Source: Thermovirga sp. | Lineage (GTDB): Bacteria; Synergistota; Synergistia; Synergistales; Thermovirgaceae | DNA length: 42,608 bases | Direction: 5' to 3' | NCBI RefSeq assembly: GCF_017656375.1 | Contig: NZ_JACDOB010000014.1 | Span: 1-42,608, forward strand | Part shown: positions 30,462 to 42,521 of the stretch, one piece after another | Position numbering within the stretch: the first letter of the stretch is position 1 | Layout of the letters: every line of letters begins with the position of its first letter | Notes under the pieces: generated by a model | Databases searched by the model: none | Seen by the model: the letters and a program-made list of their open reading frames with translations, nothing else | What the model was told of the DNA's origin: nothing | Program-made: the position numbers and the translations under genes

Positions 30462-30500
30462 AAAGGGTCATGTTGTGCTCTTGACACAACGTGACCCTTT
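30462..30500. repeat. 16-bp inverted repeat upstream of rpoB
   Basis: Bases 30462-30477 (AAAGGGTCATGTTGTG) pair with 30485-30500 across a 7-base loop; 15 pairs are Watson-Crick and one (T30471 with G30491) is a G-U pair in RNA. The stem is long and strong. No run of T follows, which argues against a simple intrinsic terminator for the tRNA transcript, although termination near TTATTTTG downstream is possible. The repeat overlaps the rpoB promoter's -35 box, so it could also be an operator. Confidence 0.85.
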
Positions 30501-30509
30501 CGCTATCCT
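30481..30509 (+). promoter_or_regulatory. Promoter of rpoBC
   Basis: A perfect TTGACA (30481-30486) is followed after exactly 17 bases by TATCCT (30504-30509, four of six matches). Transcription would start near 30516, leaving a leader of about 50 bases before rpoB. The -35 box spans the loop and right arm of the inverted repeat. Confidence 0.7.
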
Positions 30510-34143: not shown

Positions 34144-37100
34144 ATGAGCCAACATGAAATTGTAGGGGTAAAGATAAAGCTTGCGAGCCCGGAGAGGATA
34201 AGGGAGCTGTCAAGTGGAGAAGTAAAAAAGCCTGAGACCATAAATTATAGAACATTAAGGCCAGAAAAGGATGGATTGTTTTGTGAAAGAATTTTTGGCC
34301 CCACTAAGAGCTATGAGTGTGCCTGTGGCAAATATAAGCGAAGTGGCCCCAAATTTAAGGGGGTAATTTGCGACCGTTGTGGTGTTGAAATAACAGATAG
34401 TAGAGTAAGACGTGAAAGATTGGGTCATATAGAGCTAGCCGCTCCTGTAGTGCACATATGGTATTTGAAAGGAATACCCAGCAGATTGAGTCTTTTGCTG
34501 GGTACTTCCTCTAAGGACTTGGAGAAAGTAATTTATTTTGCCCCTATAAGGCGCAGAGAGCAAGTTTTCAAGGTGGTTATAGACGGCAAGAAAACCAATT
34601 TGGTCAAGAGGGGCGATTTGATTTCGGCAAGCGAGGATAGGATTCACAGGCATTACGATCATAAATTTAAGTCGGAAGAAGCTTATAGAGTTGTCCATGT
34701 AGAAGATGTTCCCCTCAACGAGGGGGATATAATCTCGGCACATCAATTGGGTGTGTACAAGCGGGATTATGGAGATAAGATCTTTCAGGCAGAACCTGCT
34801 TTTCGCGTTGTTAAGGACAGCGATGATGGCCGTTTCTCCGCAGGAGACGTTCTTTCCCAAGCTGAATTGAACAACCTCAGAAATGAGGGGATCTCACTCG
34901 AGGTGGAAAGAGCCCTTGCAGGGAGTGAGGAAGGTTTTGTCGTGACGGCAGTGTCGAAGTTGCCTTTTTCAAAGGGCGACGTTATTTCGGCTAGTGAGAA
35001 TCAGCTTTTTTCGCAAAAATATCCAGGAAGGTTTACTGTACAACATGAAACTGTGACGATAGAGGATCCATGTTACATAGTCATTAACGGAGGAAATTCT
35101 CCATTTGAGGTGGGAGATGTTATTCTGGAGAGAGAATATCACCTCTGTGCGAGTTACGATAAAAACTTCAAGGCTGGTATTGGCGCAGAAGGTGTTCTAT
35201 CATTGCTGAAAGAGCTAGATTTAGAGGAGCTTAGTGCTTCTTTGAGAGAGGAAATTGCCGAAAGTACGGGGCAAAAAAAGAGAAAACTGATTAAGCGCCT
35301 TCAGGTTGTGGAAGATTTCCGCAAGGGAAGCAGTAAGCCAGAATGGATGATCTTGGAAGTTTTACCGGTCATCCCGCCAGACCTGAGGCCAATGGTCCAG
35401 CTGGATGGTGGTCGTTTTGCCACTTCGGATTTGAACGACCTTTATCGCCGTGTAATCAATAGAAACAACAGGCTGAAAAAACTGCAGGAGTTGAGAGCTC
35501 CAGAAATAATAATAAGAAACGAAAAGCGTATGCTCCAAGAATCAGTGGATGCTCTTATTGATAATGGCAGAATGGGCAAGGCAGTTTTGGGAGCAGGTAA
35601 CAGGCCCTTGAAGAGCCTTACTGATCTTTTGAGAGGTAAAAAAGGCCGTTTCAGACAGAACCTCTTAGGTAAGAGGGTCGACTACTCTGGTCGTTCTGTT
35701 ATCGTTATAGGGCCTAGTTTGAAACTTAATCAGTGCGGCCTTCCGAAGGATATGGCTTTGGAGCTGTTTAAGCCATTTGTCATTCAGAGGCTGGTGCAAA
35801 AAGGCTTAGCCCCTAACGTTAAAAGTGCTAAGAGGGCTATAGAGAGGAGAAAAGAGGAGATATGGGAGGCCCTTGAGGAGGTTATTAAGGGACATTCAGT
35901 ATTGTTAAACAGAGCTCCCACGCTTCATAGATTGGGAATACAAGCTTTTGAGCCTGTGTTGATGGAAGGTAAGGCCATACGCCTGCATCCTTTGGTCTGT
36001 GCAGCTTTCAATGCCGATTTTGACGGAGACCAGATGGCTGTTCACGTGCCTCTGTCCATTGAAGCTCGAGTTGAAGCTCAAATGATAATGCTGTCCGCTA
36101 ATAATTTGTTGTCTCCAGCAAGCGGCAGGCCGGTGGTAACCCCAACGCAGGACATAGTTTTGGGTGTGTATTACCTTACAGGGATGAGAGATGGCCTCAA
36201 AGGGGAAGGCAGCTACTATAGAGATATCGATGATGTTCTTAGCGCGTTGGATCATGGCTTAGTACATGTCAATGCAAAAATAAAGGTGAAGTATAACGAA
36301 GAGTGGATTGAGACATCTCCAGGCAGGGTGCTCTTTAACAGCGTTATCCCAGAAAAGCTAAGGTTTATAAATATACAAATGAACAAGAAATCATTAGCTT
36401 CCCTTATAGATTCGGCGTACGATAAAGTTGACCATGAAGAATTGGTCAAGATGCTGGATGACATTAAAACCTTGGGTTACCATTGGGCGACAGTTAGTGG
36501 TTTGAGCCTATGTCTGAGCGATGTGGTTGTTCCGCCTCAAAAGCAGGATATTGTTAAAAAGGCCTTGGAGGAGGAGGAAGAGCTGAGTGCCCAGTACCAG
36601 ATGGGGATTTTGACCGAGGACGAGTATTTGAGACAGAAAGAGACGTTATGGTCAGAGGCCAGCAGGCAAGCTGCCGATTCCATACTGGCCAACATGAGCG
36701 ACACGAACTCACTTAAAATGATGGTGCAATCTGGAGCTAGAGGTAGCAAGAGCCAGCTTGCACAGATGGCTGGTATAAGGGGACTTATGGCCGATCCTTC
36801 AGGGCGCATAATAGATTATCCTATAGTGTCAAACTTTAGAGAAGGGCTTAACATGTTGGAATACTTCATTTCTACCCACGGAGCGAGAAAAGGTCTTGCA
36901 GATACTGCGTTGAGAACTGCTAAATCTGGTTACTTGACTAGAAGGCTAGTGGACGTTGCCCAGGATTTGATAATAACGGAAGAGGACTGTGGAACAGATA
37001 AGGGCATAGTTGTAAGACCTCTAGTAAGGGATGGTAAGGTGGTAATACCATTACATGAAAGAATTGCGGGAAGAACGGCTCTTGTAGATGTTGTTGATCC

Positions 37101-39132
37101 ATCAACAGGTGAAGTCGTAGTTAAATCTGGAGAAATAATTGACAATGACGCAGCGGAGCGTATAGAGAAGCTGGGGATAGAAGAAGTAATGGTCAGAAGC
37201 CCAATGACATGTGCGCTCCAAAACGGAATATGCAGAGCCTGCTATGGCACAGACTTGTCCCAGAGGAAAAAGGTCTCTATAGGTGAAGCTGTAGGGGTAG
37301 TGGCTGCCCAATCTATAGGGGAACCCGGGACTCAGCTTACGATGCGTACTTTCCATACTGGTGGAGTAAGAATAACCGGAGAAGATATAACTCAAGGTCT
37401 CCCAAGGATAGAGCAACTCTTCGAAGTGAGAAAGCCCAAAAAGATTGCCTATCTTGCTGATATGGATGGCGTTGTAAGCGAAATAAGGGAGATGGAAGGT
37501 AAAAGAAAGGTCTTCATAACATCAGAACAGGGTGGAGTCGAATATAAATCTTCGTTTACAATTCCGGCGTCTCAAAACTTATTAGTTGAAGAAGGTCAGA
37601 AAGTAAAGAAAGGGCAAGCCTTGACAGAAGGTTATGTAGATCCTTATCAACTGTTGGAGATTGAGGGTATAGAATCGGTACAAAACTACCTTGTGGACAA
37701 CATCCAGGATGTCTATCGCTCTCAAGGCGTTTCTATAAACAACAAGCATATTGAGGTCATATTGAGGAAAGTCGCTCCGGTTAACAGGGTAAGAATAGTA
37801 GATGAAGGCGATAGCTCCTTTGTGGCCAACGACTTGGTCTGGGTCAGAGACTTAGAAAAAGAAATAGAAGAGATTAGATCTGGAAATAATAAATTTATAG
37901 AAGAAGCTGTGGATGCTTTAGAGGGTAAAGTCTTTAAGGAGGCCAAAGGGCAAGGCAATCTGGAAAATGTTATGGCTTTCAGGGATGAAGTTTTGGACGA
38001 GAATAAAATAAGACGTATATTGATGCCTGGAACGCCTGTCAGCGAGTTGCTCTTAGAAGATGAAAAAGGAGCTTTGCGAATAATTGTCGGAGAAGCTTCC
38101 TTCAGGAGAGAAATGGAAGGTTTTGAGTTGGTGGAGCCTGCTTTGCTTGAAGAAGGCAAGAAAATTGAAGCAAATGTCCCATTGTCGGCGGGCCAACTTT
38201 CGCTCCTAACTAAGGGTAAGCCTGTAGAGTATTTAGCAAGAGATGTCCAGCTCCTTGAAGAGCTGGAAGATAAGGCATATTTGGCTGATGATTTGGTTTT
38301 AGATGGCGAAGTTGTAGCTTTCAAGGATAGAGTGCTTACTGGAGATGTTGTCAAAATAATTAGAGAACAAAACATAAAAGAGCTAAAAGTGTGGAAGAAT
38401 CCAGAAACGATTACTGTTGCTGATGCAATGCAGAAAAAGCTAATAGATGAATTGTGGGGTAAGTCTTTAACAAAGGCCGTTGACGAAGAAGGTAACGAAG
38501 TAAAAGATATTGCCCATATGGTGGATGGAAGAGTCGTAAGGGGCTTAATAGCCAAAGAATTGACGGCCATAGAGGTTGAAGGCCATATTCATACCAGGCA
38601 GTCCGTATTACGCCAGGCCCTCACCGAGGTGGCTTATGGCAAGGTGTTATTAGAAGACGTGGTGGATCTGAAAGGTAATCTTGTCGCTTCTGCGGGGATG
38701 GATGTAAATCACCGAGTGTTGGACTCTTTGGTAGAAGCTGACCCAGATGTGTTGGTTGTGAGGCCCATATACGCGCAGTCGGAGACCAAAAGCGTGATTC
38801 AGCGAGTTTCCTTTGTGCGCCGTCTTAGAAACGAACCGGTGTGGAAGCCTGTTATTCATGGTATAACCAAGGCCGCATTAAATACTGATAGCTTCCTGAG
38901 TGCCGCTTCGTTCCAGCAGACTGCCCAAGTTTTGGCGGGAGCAGCGGTCAGAGGTGATCATGACAACCTTAAGGGATTGAAAGAGAACGTGATAATAGGT
39001 CACCTGATACCGGCTGGTACTGGAAGAGATGAATATAGAAAAATACAAGTGACCTTGAAAAGAGATGAGCCTGAGTCTGAGGAAGGTAAAGAAAGAGAAG
39101 GAAGAGAAGGGATAGAAGATATTTTCGAATAA
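34144..39132 (+). CDS. rpoC: DNA-directed RNA polymerase subunit beta' with two large inserts
   Basis: Beta' subunit, 1662 residues, against roughly 1200 in Bacillus. The N-terminal zinc site is Cys59, Cys61, Cys76 and Cys79; the catalytic [12 protein letters not shown] is at 623-634; the second zinc site includes the [13 protein letters not shown] region; the trigger loop ([19 protein letters not shown]) is uninterrupted, so the enterobacterial trigger-loop insert is absent. Two expansions are present: about residues 138-308 and about 1235-1562 (listed separately). The C-terminus resumes canonical sequence with [19 protein letters not shown] and ends in an acidic tail. GGGGAGG at 34126-34132 lies 11 bases before the ATG. 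Confidence 0.97.
34555..35067 (+). other. RpoC insert 1: tandem sandwich-barrel-hybrid-like units
   Basis: Compared with E. coli beta', the distance from the N-terminal zinc site to the catalytic Asp triad is about 175 residues longer. The extra part consists of repeating units, each with a GD(L/I/V)(I/L) hallmark: GDLI at 157-160, GDII at 194-197, GDVL at 234-237, GDVI at 278-281 and GDVI at 324-327, spaced 37-46 residues apart. The last unit aligns with the single unit found at this place in E. coli, so the others look like duplications. Thermus beta' is known to carry a related, larger insert at this position. Confidence 0.75.
37845..38829 (+). other. RpoC insert 2: about 310 residues of beta-rich repeats near the C-terminus
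   Basis: From the GD of VDEGDSS (1222) to GITKAAL (1573) there are 351 residues; the same interval in Bacillus beta' is about 38. The extra sequence contains about five units of 40-60 residues with the pattern G.xVxxxxxxLxxxxVxxLxxxxIxxLxV, starting near 1262, 1322, 1377, 1440 and 1500. The unit at 1500-1543 ([17 protein letters not shown]) resembles the canonical segment at 978-1023 of the same protein ([18 protein letters not shown]), suggesting origin by internal duplication. Confidence 0.7.
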
Positions 39133-39166: not shown

Positions 39167-39195
39167 TTGACATAAGGGGCCGACATTGATAACAT
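39167..39195 (+). promoter_or_regulatory. Promoter of the L7Ae-str operon
   Basis: TTGACA at 39167-39172 and TAACAT at 39190-39195 (four of six) are exactly 17 bases apart, 35 bases after the rpoC stop. Transcription should begin near 39202, about 23 bases before the L7Ae ATG. The -10 box lies in the loop of the hairpin described next. Confidence 0.6.
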
Positions 39196-39218
39196 GTGTC
39201 GGTCCCCTAGTAAGGGGG
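39176..39218 (+). promoter_or_regulatory. Two competing hairpins before the L7Ae-family gene
   Basis: Hairpin A pairs 39176-39185 (GGGGCCGACA) with 39197-39206 (10 pairs, one G-U, 11-base loop). Hairpin B pairs 39203-39208 (TCCCCT) with 39213-39218 across AGTA, covering the G-run (39214-39220) that serves as ribosome binding site for ATG 39225. Both need the C-run at 39204-39206, so only one can form. No T-run follows A, so it is not a standard terminator. Confidence 0.5.
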
Positions 39219-39224
39219 GGTGCT

Positions 39225-39464
39225 ATGCCCTTACATGAGTTGGCTGTGCCCTATAGGGTAGTGGGGACAAAAGCTGTCAGAAAGGCTCTAAGCAGAGGGA
39301 GCTTGAAGAAGGTTTTTATTGCGAAGGATGCAGAGCCGTCGATTGTGGATGGCTTGTGGGAACAGGCAGCCAGTTTAGGTGTGGAAGTTGAGTGGGCAGA
39401 TAGCAAGGTTGTTTTAGGTAGAGCTTGTGCTATAGATAGGCCTGCTTCTGCGGCTGGCATATAA
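39225..39464 (+). CDS. L7Ae/L30e-family K-turn RNA-binding protein
   Basis: A 79-residue protein with the L7Ae pattern: VVGTKAVRKALSRGSLKKVFIAKDAEP, a central helix, then VVLGRACAIDRPASAAGI, close to the family's LGxACGIDxxAA end. Homologues (YbxF/YlxQ in Bacillus) bind kink-turn RNA, and ybxF has the same place between rpoC and rpsL in Firmicutes. ATG 39225 follows a G-run; the frame is open back to a TTG at 39186, but that would be translated from within the promoter region. It opens the str operon. Confidence 0.88.
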   Translation: MPLHELAVPYRVVGTKAVRKALSRGSLKKVFIAKDAEPSIVDGLWEQAASLGVEVEWADSKVVLGRACAIDRPASAAGI

Positions 39465-39527: not shown

Positions 39528-39899
39528 GTGCCTACTATTAATCAACTTATAAGAAAAGGTAGAGAAGAAAAGAAAAAGCGTTCGGGAGCCCCGGCTCTAC
39601 AGGGTAATCCCATGCGCAGAGGGGTTTGTACCAGGGTTTATACCGTTACACCTAAGAAGCCTAACTCTGCTTTGCGTAAGGTTGCCAGGGTGAGGTTGAC
39701 TAATGGTTTTGAGGTTACGTCCTATATTCCTGGTGTGGGGCATAATTTGCAAGAGCACTCGGTTGTACTTGTGAGGGGTGGTCGTGTTAAGGACCTTCCA
39801 GGTGTTAGGTATCACATAGTCCGAGGCACTTTGGATTGTGGTGGTGTTGAAGGCAGAAAGCAGGGTCGTTCGAAGTATGGAGCGAGGCGGCCTAAATAG
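39528..39899 (+). CDS. rpsL: 30S ribosomal protein S12
   Basis: Decoding-centre protein S12. [12 protein letters not shown], the conserved [15 protein letters not shown] and [14 protein letters not shown] segments are intact; both lysines associated with streptomycin resistance when altered are the ordinary residues. Length (123) is normal. The start is GTG, 7 bases after AAGGAGG at 39514-39520. Confidence 0.98.
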
Positions 39900-39933: not shown

Positions 39934-40404
39934 ATGCCAAGAAAAGGTCATGTTCGTAAAAGAAAGCCACAAGTAGATTCCAGGTTTGGTAGGACAGATA
40001 TAGCAAAATTTATCAATTGTATTATGTGGGATGGCAAGAAAAGTTTGGCGGAGAGGATAATGTACGGGGCTTTGGATATTGCTGCCAAGCGCTTGAATAC
40101 TGATCCCTTGGATGTTTTTGAGAAGGCTATGGAGAATGTCAAGCCTATAGTTGAGGTTAGGCCAAGGCGCGTGGGTGGAGCCACCTACCAGGTGCCTGTG
40201 GAGGTTCAGCCAGATAGAGCGCAGGCGCTTGCTACGAGATGGATAATTCAGTACGCGCGAGCGAAGAAGGGGATACCGATGGTCGAGAGGCTTGCTAGGG
40301 AGTTTGTGGATGCCTACAAGGGTGAGGGTAGTTCTGTTAAAAAGAGGGAAGATACCCATAAGATGGCAGAGGCTAACAGGGCTTTTGCGCATTATCGTTG
40401 GTAG
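39934..40404 (+). CDS. rpsG: 30S ribosomal protein S7
   Basis: Primary 16S rRNA-binding protein of the small-subunit head. MPRKGHVRKR, DSRFGRTDIAKFINCIMWDGKK, PIVEVRPRRVGGATYQVPVEV and RANRAFAHYRW-like C-terminal sequence (EANRAFAHYRW) are diagnostic. Length (156) is normal. GGAGGG at 39918-39923 lies 10 bases before ATG. In E. coli S7 represses translation of this operon by binding the S12-S7 spacer; the 34-base spacer here is short and I see no convincing equivalent structure. Confidence 0.98.
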   Translation: MPRKGHVRKRKPQVDSRFGRTDIAKFINCIMWDGKKSLAERIMYGALDIAAKRLNTDPLDVFEKAMENVKPIVEVRPRRVGGATYQVPVEVQPDRAQALATRWIIQYARAKKGIPMVERLAREFVDAYKGEGSSVKKREDTHKMAEANRAFAHYRW

Positions 40405-40448: not shown

Positions 40449-42521
40449 ATGGATAACGACAAAGTAAACAGGCTCAAGAAAATAAGAAATATAGGAATCG
40501 CGGCTCATATAGACGCAGGTAAAACTACTACGACGGAGAGGATTCTCTTTTACACAGGGCGTAAGCACCGTATAGGAGAGGTTCATGAGGGCGCTGCGAC
40601 GATGGATTGGATGGAGCAGGAGAAAGAAAGAGGTATCACTATTACCTCTGCGGCCACTACCTGCTTGTGGAAAGATCATCATATTAATATTATTGATACG
40701 CCCGGCCACGTGGATTTTACAGTAGAAGTCGAGCGTTCCATGAGGGTGCTTGATGGCGCTATAGCCGTCTTTTGTTCTGTTGGGGGTGTTGAGCCTCAGT
40801 CTGAGACTGTGTGGCGGCAGGCAGATAAATACAGAGTGCCAAGGATAGCTTTTGTAAATAAGATGGATAGGGTTGGGGCAGATTTTTACGCCGTGGTCTC
40901 TCAGATGAAGGAGAGGCTGGGGGCGAATGCTATACCCATTCAGATGCCCATAGGAAGCGAGGATACATTCTCTGGTGTTATTGACCTGGTTGGCTATAAA
41001 GCAGTTTTATATCAGGATGAATTGGGGGCTCAATATAAAGTAGTGGATGTGCCTCCCGAGCTTCAAGAAGAGGCTGCACTTGCAAGAGATGCCATGATTG
41101 AAGCGCTGGCAGATTGCGACGAAGAGATAATGGAGCTTTATCTCGAAGGCGAAGACGTACCTGAGGATCTCCTTAAGAAAGCAATAAGAGAGAACACTGT
41201 AAATCTTAAGATATTCCCTGTTCTTTGTGGTTCTGCTTTTAAAAATAAGGGAGTTCAGCCTTTATTGGATGCTGTTGTGGATTATCTTCCGAGTCCATTG
41301 GATTTGCCTCCTGTTCAGGGTGCGGATCCGAGTACTGGTGAAATTGTAGAAATAAGTCCGGATTCTGATGATGCTTTTGCCGCGTTGGCGTTCAAGATAG
41401 TGGTAGATCCTTTTGTGGGAAGGCTGGTTTATTGCCGTGTTTATTCTGGCACAGTGAATGCCGGGGAGACGCTCGTAAATACCACGTCTAGGGCAAAAGA
41501 GAGAGTTGGCAGGATCTTGCGCATGCATGCTAATAAAAGAGAAGAATTGGATCGTGCAGAGGCTGGAATGATCGTTGCTCTGCCGGGCCTCAAGGCGACA
41601 AAAACTGGTGACACCTTGTGTAGTGATAAACGTCCAGTGATATTGGAGAGCTTGGAATTCCCTGAGCCTGTTATTTCGCTGGCAGTAGAACCTCAGAGTA
41701 AGGCTGACCAGGTAAAGCTGTCAAAGGGATTGGTTGGCTTGGCGGAAGAAGACCCAACCTTCAAGGTTCGTACCGACGAGGAGACAGGGCAGACCATTAT
41801 ATCAGGTATGGGTGAACTTCATCTTGAGATAATTGTCGATAGATTGAAGAGGGAGTATGGAGTTTCTGTCCGGGTCGGCAAGCCGCAGGTTGCCTACCGT
41901 GAGACTATAAAGGCAAAAGCTTCTGCGGAAGGCAAGTTTATCAGGCAGTCTGGTGGTAGGGGGCAGTATGGTCACGTAGTTCTTGAAATTGAACCTCTTG
42001 AGGAAAGGTCTGGATTTGAGTTCGTCGATAAGATTGTAGGAGGGGCCATCCCCAAGGAGTATATTCCTGCTGTCCAGAAGGGCATAGAAGAGGCGATGGG
42101 ATCAGGAGTCATGGGTGGGTATCCAGTCATTGGTGTGCGAGCTACCCTTGTAGATGGCAGTTATCACGAGGTGGATAGCTCTGAGATGGCGTTTAAGATA
42201 GCTGCTTCTATGGGCTTTAAGGAGGCTATGAAGAAAGCTCAGCCAGTATTGCTGGAGCCAATAATGGAGGTAGAAGTTGTGACTCCTGAGGAGTACATGG
42301 GAGACGTTATGGGAGACCTTAACTCCAGAAGGGGCAGGGTAGAGGGTATGGATATGCGGGCTAATGCTCGTATAGTAAAAGCGTATGTGCCCCTTGCAGA
42401 AATGTTCGGCTACGCAACGGAGCTTAGGAGCAAAACTTCAGGTAGGGCTTCTTATTCCATGAAGTTTTCTCACTATGAAGAGGTTCCGCAATCTATAGCG
42501 GAAGGGCTTTTGAAGAAATAA
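40449..42521 (+). CDS. fusA: Elongation factor G
   Basis: Translocation GTPase. G1 [15 protein letters not shown] (residues 19-33), G2 [11 protein letters not shown]3 DTPGHVDF, G4 NKMD and G5 GSAF are all present, and domains II-V follow in full (690 residues). Domain IV has the [18 protein letters not shown] stretch and the C-terminus is canonical. It follows rpsG in the usual str order, which supports the main EF-G rather than an accessory paralogue. The ribosome binding site (GATGGTGA at about 40435-40442) is weaker than those of neighbours. Confidence 0.97.

Follow-up and report, generated by a model that had tools for sequence, protein, structure and literature searches.

Gene order and the str-operon promoter

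The window, by which we mean the whole stretch of 42,608 nucleotides of Thermovirga sp. DNA that was analysed, carries in its right part a tRNA-Leu gene followed in order by rpoB, rpoC, an L7Ae/YbxF-like gene, rpsL, rpsG, and fusA; rpoB and rpoC are what we take these two genes to be from their sequences. All window coordinates given below refer to the plus strand. The rpoC open reading frame (34144-39132), whose translation served as the RpoC query for relatives, has its stop 92 nt 5' of the start of the L7Ae-like gene (39225-39464). The latter belongs to Pfam family PF01248, the solved structures closest to its product are those of YbxF (4lck and 3v7e), and it is the first gene of an operon that continues with rpsL (S12, 39528-39899), rpsG (S7, 39934-40404), and fusA (EF-G, 40449-42521). 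We place the L7Ae start at the ATG at 39225 because an MPL N-terminus was found in 21 of 21 compared sequences, the window among them; this holds for those 21, and some of the 89 loci introduced below differ. Two junctions between neighbouring operons, rpoC to L7Ae-rpsL-rpsG-fusA and tRNA-Leu to rpoB, therefore concern us here, the operons at each lying on one strand. A search of a plasmid collection with the locus returned no match.

Pattern matching identified a promoter for the str operon with a -35 element TTGACA (39167-39172), a 17-nt spacer, and an extended -10 element TGATAACAT (39187-39195) that includes the extended TG and the hexamer TAACAT (39190-39195). Its transcription start is predicted at the GG at 39201-39202, from spacing and from register with the GGTGC of most relatives. 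The raw match is not significant, as 8 promoter-like sites were seen in 9.6 kb against 13.2 expected; when sites had to carry a TTGAC core and match at 10 of 12 positions, the window had two of them, those of str and rpoB. What makes the promoter credible is its conservation in all 88 testable L7Ae loci. We detected L7Ae matches in 92 of the 185 genomes of the phylum and, omitting the distant G121, G122, and G124, compared 89 loci, one per genome, of which L011 is cut at a contig end. The -35 element reads TTGACA in 87 of the 88 and TTGACT in one, the spacer measures 17 nt in 52, 18 nt in 34, and 16 nt in 2, and the -10 hexamer is TATTAT in 52; the distance from the end of the -10 to the start codon is 29-38 nt in every one. 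Judged from this comparison, the str promoter is conserved across the order.

Terminator-like stems around the str promoter of relatives

In many relatives the promoter is embedded in a stem of recurrent layout. The left arm lies 5' of the -35, the -35 occupies the loop or the inner stem, the right arm coincides with the spacer, and the -10 (UUGUUAUUAUU) takes the place of the U-rich tail. The 12 nt that start 3 nt before the -10 contain 6.1 T on average over the 88 loci, and the U-tail UUGUUAUUAUU has an interrupting A. By a strict test, which asks for a z no higher than -3 and for the -35 to be enclosed by 6 or more pairs, the stem is present in 46 of the 70 loci adjacent to rpoC, the window included in the 70. 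It was found in 24/24 loci of family f5, 5/5 of f8, 5/6 of f4, 3/4 of f7, 8/13 of f3, and 1/2 of f9, and is missing in 24 of the 70, among them all those of f1 (0/8), f2 (0/2), and f10 (0/6). None of the 18 loci in which no RpoC was detected within the upstream DNA covered (198 to 1500 nt) has it; three of these (L007, L052, and L100) lie no more than 330 nt from a contig end.

The pairing is supported by covariation, to a degree that depends on the measure. In a set of 16 f5 sequences, which like the rpoB set below were picked from loci possessing the stem, 90% of the cells pair, 20 cells changed on both sides (6.2 in shuffles), and the covariation score of 0.253 was well above those of slid versions and above the 0.092 of shuffles, none of 500 of which reached it. 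Stricter counts were unremarkable: there were 5 pairs with double changes against 3.5 in shuffles (73 of 500 as high) and 11 further pair types against 8.6 (47 of 500 as high).

In four f10 loci, a strong stem is present but reaches only as far as the -35. In these four genomes (L024-L027) and in one f9 genome (L028), the right arm of the stem holds the -35 itself, which is another geometry of overlap; the stems are TCAAGTGGG...CCCACTTGA and GATGTCAA...TTGACATC. The f9 locus with its -35 in the right arm is counted within the 46.

Given where the promoter lies, RNA that reads through from rpoBC would have to fold a hairpin over the promoter sequence. We infer that the stem with the -35 in its loop is the intrinsic terminator of rpoBC, in which case one DNA segment would end one operon and start the next, and the job of the stem would be at the level of transcription.

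The rpoB promoter and the genomic background

The same layout recurs in the window itself at the other junction. Behind tRNA-Leu(CAG), the putative rpoB promoter sits in a hairpin (30462-30509, z -4.9) whose stem pairs 30462-30477 with 30485-30500, with TTGACA at 30481-30486 and the -10 TATCCT at 30504-30509, just as at the str locus of relatives. The strict stem was found at 18 of 30 fetched rpoB loci, including all 9 readable loci of the window's family, and tRNA-Leu(CAG) at 15 of 16 that were scanned. Among the 29 uncut loci (L198 is cut at a contig end), 11 fail the strict test: 3 contain no promoter-like site, and 8 fall short of the cut-off, L206, L215, and L217 narrowly. Covariation here is strong by every measure. 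In an alignment of 15 of the 18 loci, 94.2% of the cells pair, 10 of 16 pairs are double-changed (6.1 in shuffles), 29 further pair types occur (23.5 in shuffles), and the covariation score reaches 0.617 where shuffles give 0.306, with 0 of 500 shuffles as high for each measure. In the window's family, then, the stem layout is kept at rpoB and missing at str.

To what extent is such embedding a property of promoters in these genomes at large? In a 400-kb sample of G022, 3 of the 15 promoter-like sites had a stem enclosing the -35. A sample of the same size from the sister species G001 had 27 promoter-like sites, none with a stem around the -35 and 3, the str site included, with one around the -10. 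From these background samples, the stem is present at some promoters and absent at others, and embedded promoters are neither universal in these genomes nor unique to rpoB and str. One of the three in G022 (L169, 3954-4006, minus strand) is a promoter in a 23-pair hairpin of -54 kcal/mol with TTGACA in the right arm; the genes behind it are presumably a ylxM-like gene and ffh, judging from their sequences.

Hairpin A over the promoter of the window

The window's own str locus departs from this layout, as no terminator-like form enclosing the -35 was found there (z +1.5). Instead, RNA reading through from rpoC, and only that RNA, is predicted to fold what we call hairpin A (39175-39208), with the -10 in its loop. 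The region 39175-39186 pairs with 39196-39208 in 12 pairs with one bulge around the loop UGAUAACAU; its predicted stability is -20.4 kcal/mol (z -4.7), which none of 200 shuffles equalled. By itself this stability is not unique, since 43-nt segments of -19 kcal/mol or lower form 17 clusters on the plus strand of the window and 9 on the minus strand. The distinguishing feature of hairpin A is its position over the promoter. It is followed by AGUAAGG, and without a U-tract there to serve as tail it is probably a poor terminator.

The distribution of hairpin A is narrow. Stems enclosing the -10 with at least 6 pairs and z at most -2 occur in 7 of the 88 loci; a form of about -20 kcal/mol is confined to the two species of the window's genus, and the other 5 loci pass the weak cut only. 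In L010, the family member that comes next, the form has 7 pairs and a stability of -9.1 kcal/mol. Between the window and its sister species (L003), 3 of the 17 spacer bases differ and every pair of hairpin A is retained, two of them as G-U, with z values of -4.5 to -4.9 across the two species. Support for hairpin A thus comes from two closely related species, and the spacer changes between them are too few to prove selection on it.

On the one hand, hairpin A might be a neutral or accidental inverted repeat of a single genus, in a family that has lost its rpoBC terminator, so that only the promoter matters. The restriction of the strong form to 2 of 88 loci, the -10-enclosing stems at other promoter-like sites of the sister species, and the 26 clusters of similar stability on both strands of the window all fit this explanation. 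On the other hand, the z values and the preservation of every pair through three spacer changes speak against an accident, and we regard this explanation as somewhat unlikely. The reading that we prefer, with moderate confidence, is that the segment comprises the promoter and short leader of L7Ae-rpsL-rpsG-fusA, that read-through RNA folds a hairpin over this promoter, and that the role of the arrangement is at the level of transcription. The conserved promoter would supply the operon's own mRNA. In the window's genus, hairpin A, whose centre is shifted by some 20 nt in the 3' direction so that it surrounds the -10 and the beginning of the leader, would replace the terminator form, and most likely it would fold away the leader part of the rpoBC read-through RNA.

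Predicted translation of the two RNAs

The earlier note on this DNA had put forward a different role, namely that translation differs between read-through RNA and RNA started at the promoter, as hairpin A excludes a second hairpin, B. The elements on which it built are indeed there: the promoter and the two overlapping hairpins are present in the sequence. Hairpin B (39204-39217) is predicted as the leader hairpin of promoter-started RNA and pairs CCCCU (39204-39208) with AGGGG (39213-39217), overlapping the purine run of the ribosome-binding site. Because A and B have the C-run 39204-39208 in common, they exclude each other. To compare the two RNAs, read-through RNA (from 39133) and promoter RNA (from 39201) were each folded to six 3' ends. 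All six read-through RNAs are predicted to fold hairpin A, which locks up the C-run, as the note had claimed, and an RNA that starts near 39201 cannot make it. In RNA from 39201, the pair probability of hairpin B is 0.82-0.94 with the 3' end at 39230 or 39240 and 0.70-0.77 at 39260, so that short transcripts do form it; with longer RNA it falls to 0.45-0.49 (39284), 0.04-0.05 (39330), and 0.36-0.40 (39464). The minimum free energy structures of all 8 family leaders likewise pair a 5' pyrimidine run with the Shine-Dalgarno (SD) purines, at weak z values of -0.2 to -2.5.

The other half of the claim, that hairpin A leaves the ribosome-binding site free, did not hold up. A third hairpin, C (39210-39234), which the note lacked, is a perfect 7-nt repeat (GTAAGGG/CCCTTAC, arms 39210-39216 and 39228-39234) that pairs the SD region with codons 2-4, and once read-through RNA extends to 39240 or further, its predicted pair probability is 0.80-0.98. 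Hairpin A therefore does not free the site. At the same position, six other family members have CAAGGG/CCCTTG by eye; between the UAAGGG/CCCUUA of the genus and the CAAGGG/CCCUUG of these six, one compensated pair differs (again by eye).

Differences in predicted accessibility were correspondingly uneven. The mean unpaired probability of 39212-39220 in read-through and promoter RNA, respectively, was 0.55 and 0.14 with the 3' end at 39230, 0.34 and 0.15 at 39240, 0.35 and 0.19 at 39260, 0.35 and 0.25 at 39284, 0.35 and 0.36 at 39330, and 0.38 and 0.30 at 39464. With 60 nt of coding sequence, SD accessibility was 0.35 and 0.18 in both species of the genus, and the average of the 8 family members was 0.28 and 0.27; with 36 nt, it was 0.35 and 0.06 in the window and 0.27 and 0.26 in the family mean. 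Of the 70 rpoC-adjacent loci (36 nt), 4 showed an excess of accessibility above 0.2 in read-through RNA and 9 a deficit above 0.2; f3 contributes six of the latter and f8 two.

A translational switch is thus favoured by the mutual exclusion of A and B, by the high probability of B over the purine run in the shorter promoter RNAs, and by the gap in predicted accessibility within the genus (0.35 in read-through RNA against 0.06-0.18 in promoter RNA), which is about twofold with 60 nt of coding sequence. However, hairpin C occupies the same site in read-through RNA, the gap shrinks or vanishes as more coding sequence is included, and the family means are practically equal. Conservation of both pairings among relatives, whose absence the note itself counted as a refutation, is also largely lacking, as strong hairpin A is limited to two species. 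Since short RNAs favour the switch and long ones do not, the effect would be at best a small one at the level of the genus; we consider the switch very unlikely and do not take it as the leading idea. Our models predict little difference in the translation of the two RNAs.

The codons that take part in hairpin C show a bias of their own. Codons 2-3 of the L7Ae gene (39228-39233 in the window) read CCY-TTR in 73 of 89 loci; CCY encodes 77 of the 78 prolines at position 2 and TTR 80 of the 82 leucines at position 3, and TTA accounts for 60 of these 82 leucines versus 52 of 708 elsewhere in the gene. We asked whether selection across the phylum keeps the SD and codons 2-3 able to pair, and rejected the idea: a synonymous rank test over 76 loci gave a mean of genus medians of 11.6 out of 24, which is about chance. 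The exception is rank 1 in six family members outside the genus.

The leader hairpin and possible autoregulation

In most families, the str promoter is followed by GGTGC and then, immediately 5' of the SD, by a small GUGC/GCAC hairpin. In 43 of 89 loci, the exact pattern GGTGC..GCAC.GGAGG stands directly before L7Ae; it occurs anywhere in 61 of the 185 genomes, 54 of which have a single match. Such a hairpin could be the site at which the L7Ae-like protein, S12, or S7 represses its own mRNA. This possibility draws on the placement of the pattern, which is rare elsewhere, on the resemblance of the L7Ae-like protein to the RNA-binding YbxF, and on the pairing itself: in 23 hand-picked leaders 82.6% of the cells are paired, and the score of 0.269 compares with 0.172 in shuffles (1 of 500 as high). 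Yet the stem has four pairs only, structures slid by 2 columns still score 0.21, and the other counts are close to those of shuffles, with 2 double-change pairs against 1.3 (177 of 500 as high) and 4 further pair types against 3.5 (237 of 500). Moreover, the window's family has a different pairing.

Searches for known regulatory elements gave nothing that would identify a protein-binding leader. At gathering level, the Rfam search of the whole window returned only a tRNA; the matches near the str locus (E 3.1-6.6) were far under gathering scores, so that the search recognised no ribosomal-protein leader. By eye, no kink-turn (two stems separated by a three-nucleotide bulge and tandem G.A pairs) was seen in hairpins A, B, and C. 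We thus found no evidence for the suggestion, also made in the earlier note, that the L7Ae-family protein acts at this leader.

Genomes that lack the L7Ae gene at this position bear on the same question. We collected 20 loci at rpsL from genomes in which str shows no L7Ae match; two of the loci come from G121 and G122, where a weak L7Ae-like match lies at another place. In L112-L114 and L116-L119, the promoter and a GGTG start are kept and are followed by a leader of about 100 to 300 nt to rpsL, whereas L105-L111, L115, and L120-L124 are without the exact GGTG start. A remnant of the L7Ae start region can be recognised by eye upstream of rpsL in L114-L117 and L121. Because several loci keep the promoter element without L7Ae, the element is independent of L7Ae in those genomes, and the persistence of the promoter and of a similar leader start there is a further point against self-repression, which we consider improbable. 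The long rpsL leaders (L112-L119 and L121) had no convincing Rfam match, and the idea that they form one RNA family was dropped, as L112-L113 and L114-L115 align unconvincingly by eye. Another rpsL leader was seen in genus g7 (L105-L110), where CTGCTGT pairs by eye with an ACAGCAG that carries or adjoins the SD.

A proposed overlap of terminators and promoters

The reading in which the segment acts at the level of transcription leads to a more general picture. Of greater value than the switch is the finding that the promoters of rpoB and str repeatedly lie nested within stems resembling terminators, with strong covariation of the aligned sequences at rpoB. As we picture it, the lineage would end the tRNA transcript and start rpoB, and end rpoBC and start str, on shared bases. 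The full version of this picture is that the rpoB and str promoters lie in the loop of the preceding terminator, that the finishing polymerase is released onto the next promoter and handed over to it, and that the genus of the window has rewired its str link into a hairpin around the -10. Termination and hand-over at these stems are what we infer from their sequences, and taken as a whole this version seems to us unlikely.

There is precedent for both parts. According to PMC7055797, which refers to Brandis, Cao and Hughes (2019), the terminator of one operon overlaps the promoter of the next in the same gene cluster of Salmonella, and interrupting the tufB-secE overlap lowered fitness. The likeness to what is described there lies in the gene cluster and in the placement of one operon's terminator over the next operon's promoter. 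Here, by contrast, the junctions lie between tRNA-Leu and rpoB and between rpoC and str, and the phylum is another one. The overlap predicted in Synergistota follows one recurrent geometry: the loop or inner part of the stem carries the -35, the spacer supplies the right arm, and the -10 serves as tail. The str copy in the window departs from this, its loop carrying the -10 and no U-tail following. As for hand-over, Kang et al. (2020; PMC6978380) reported that after intrinsic termination polymerases mostly stay on the DNA and are able to start again at a promoter close by; in our case the point of release would coincide with the promoter, a likeness that we offer as an analogy. The Synergistota pattern would be a variant of the Salmonella terminator-promoter overlap and could use polymerase recycling.

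An L7Ae-family gene with a structured leader also recalls translational regulation by archaeal L7Ae, the subject of PMC5539422, and the bacterial ribosomal-protein leaders treated in PMC7247131, but in the window's leader no kink-turn was seen by eye and no Rfam match was found. For uS12, rpsL, eL8, uS7, the str operon, and Synergist, the main text of PMC7247131 contains only a table entry 'rpsl' beside rplM. The same gene cluster is treated for Gammaproteobacteria and Bacilli in PMC8046335, in whose main text the words terminator and Synergist are absent. Among the literature matches listed, none dealt with a terminator-promoter layout in Synergistota.

If termination and initiation do share bases at these junctions, the order as a whole would present a compact case of chaining the RNA polymerase genes to the str operon, one that can be tested by evolutionary comparison. 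The polymerase and the ribosomal operon would then be expressed as links of one chain, which would help explain why the gene order persists, and the order would offer many natural variants for testing the recycling of polymerase from a terminator to the next promoter.
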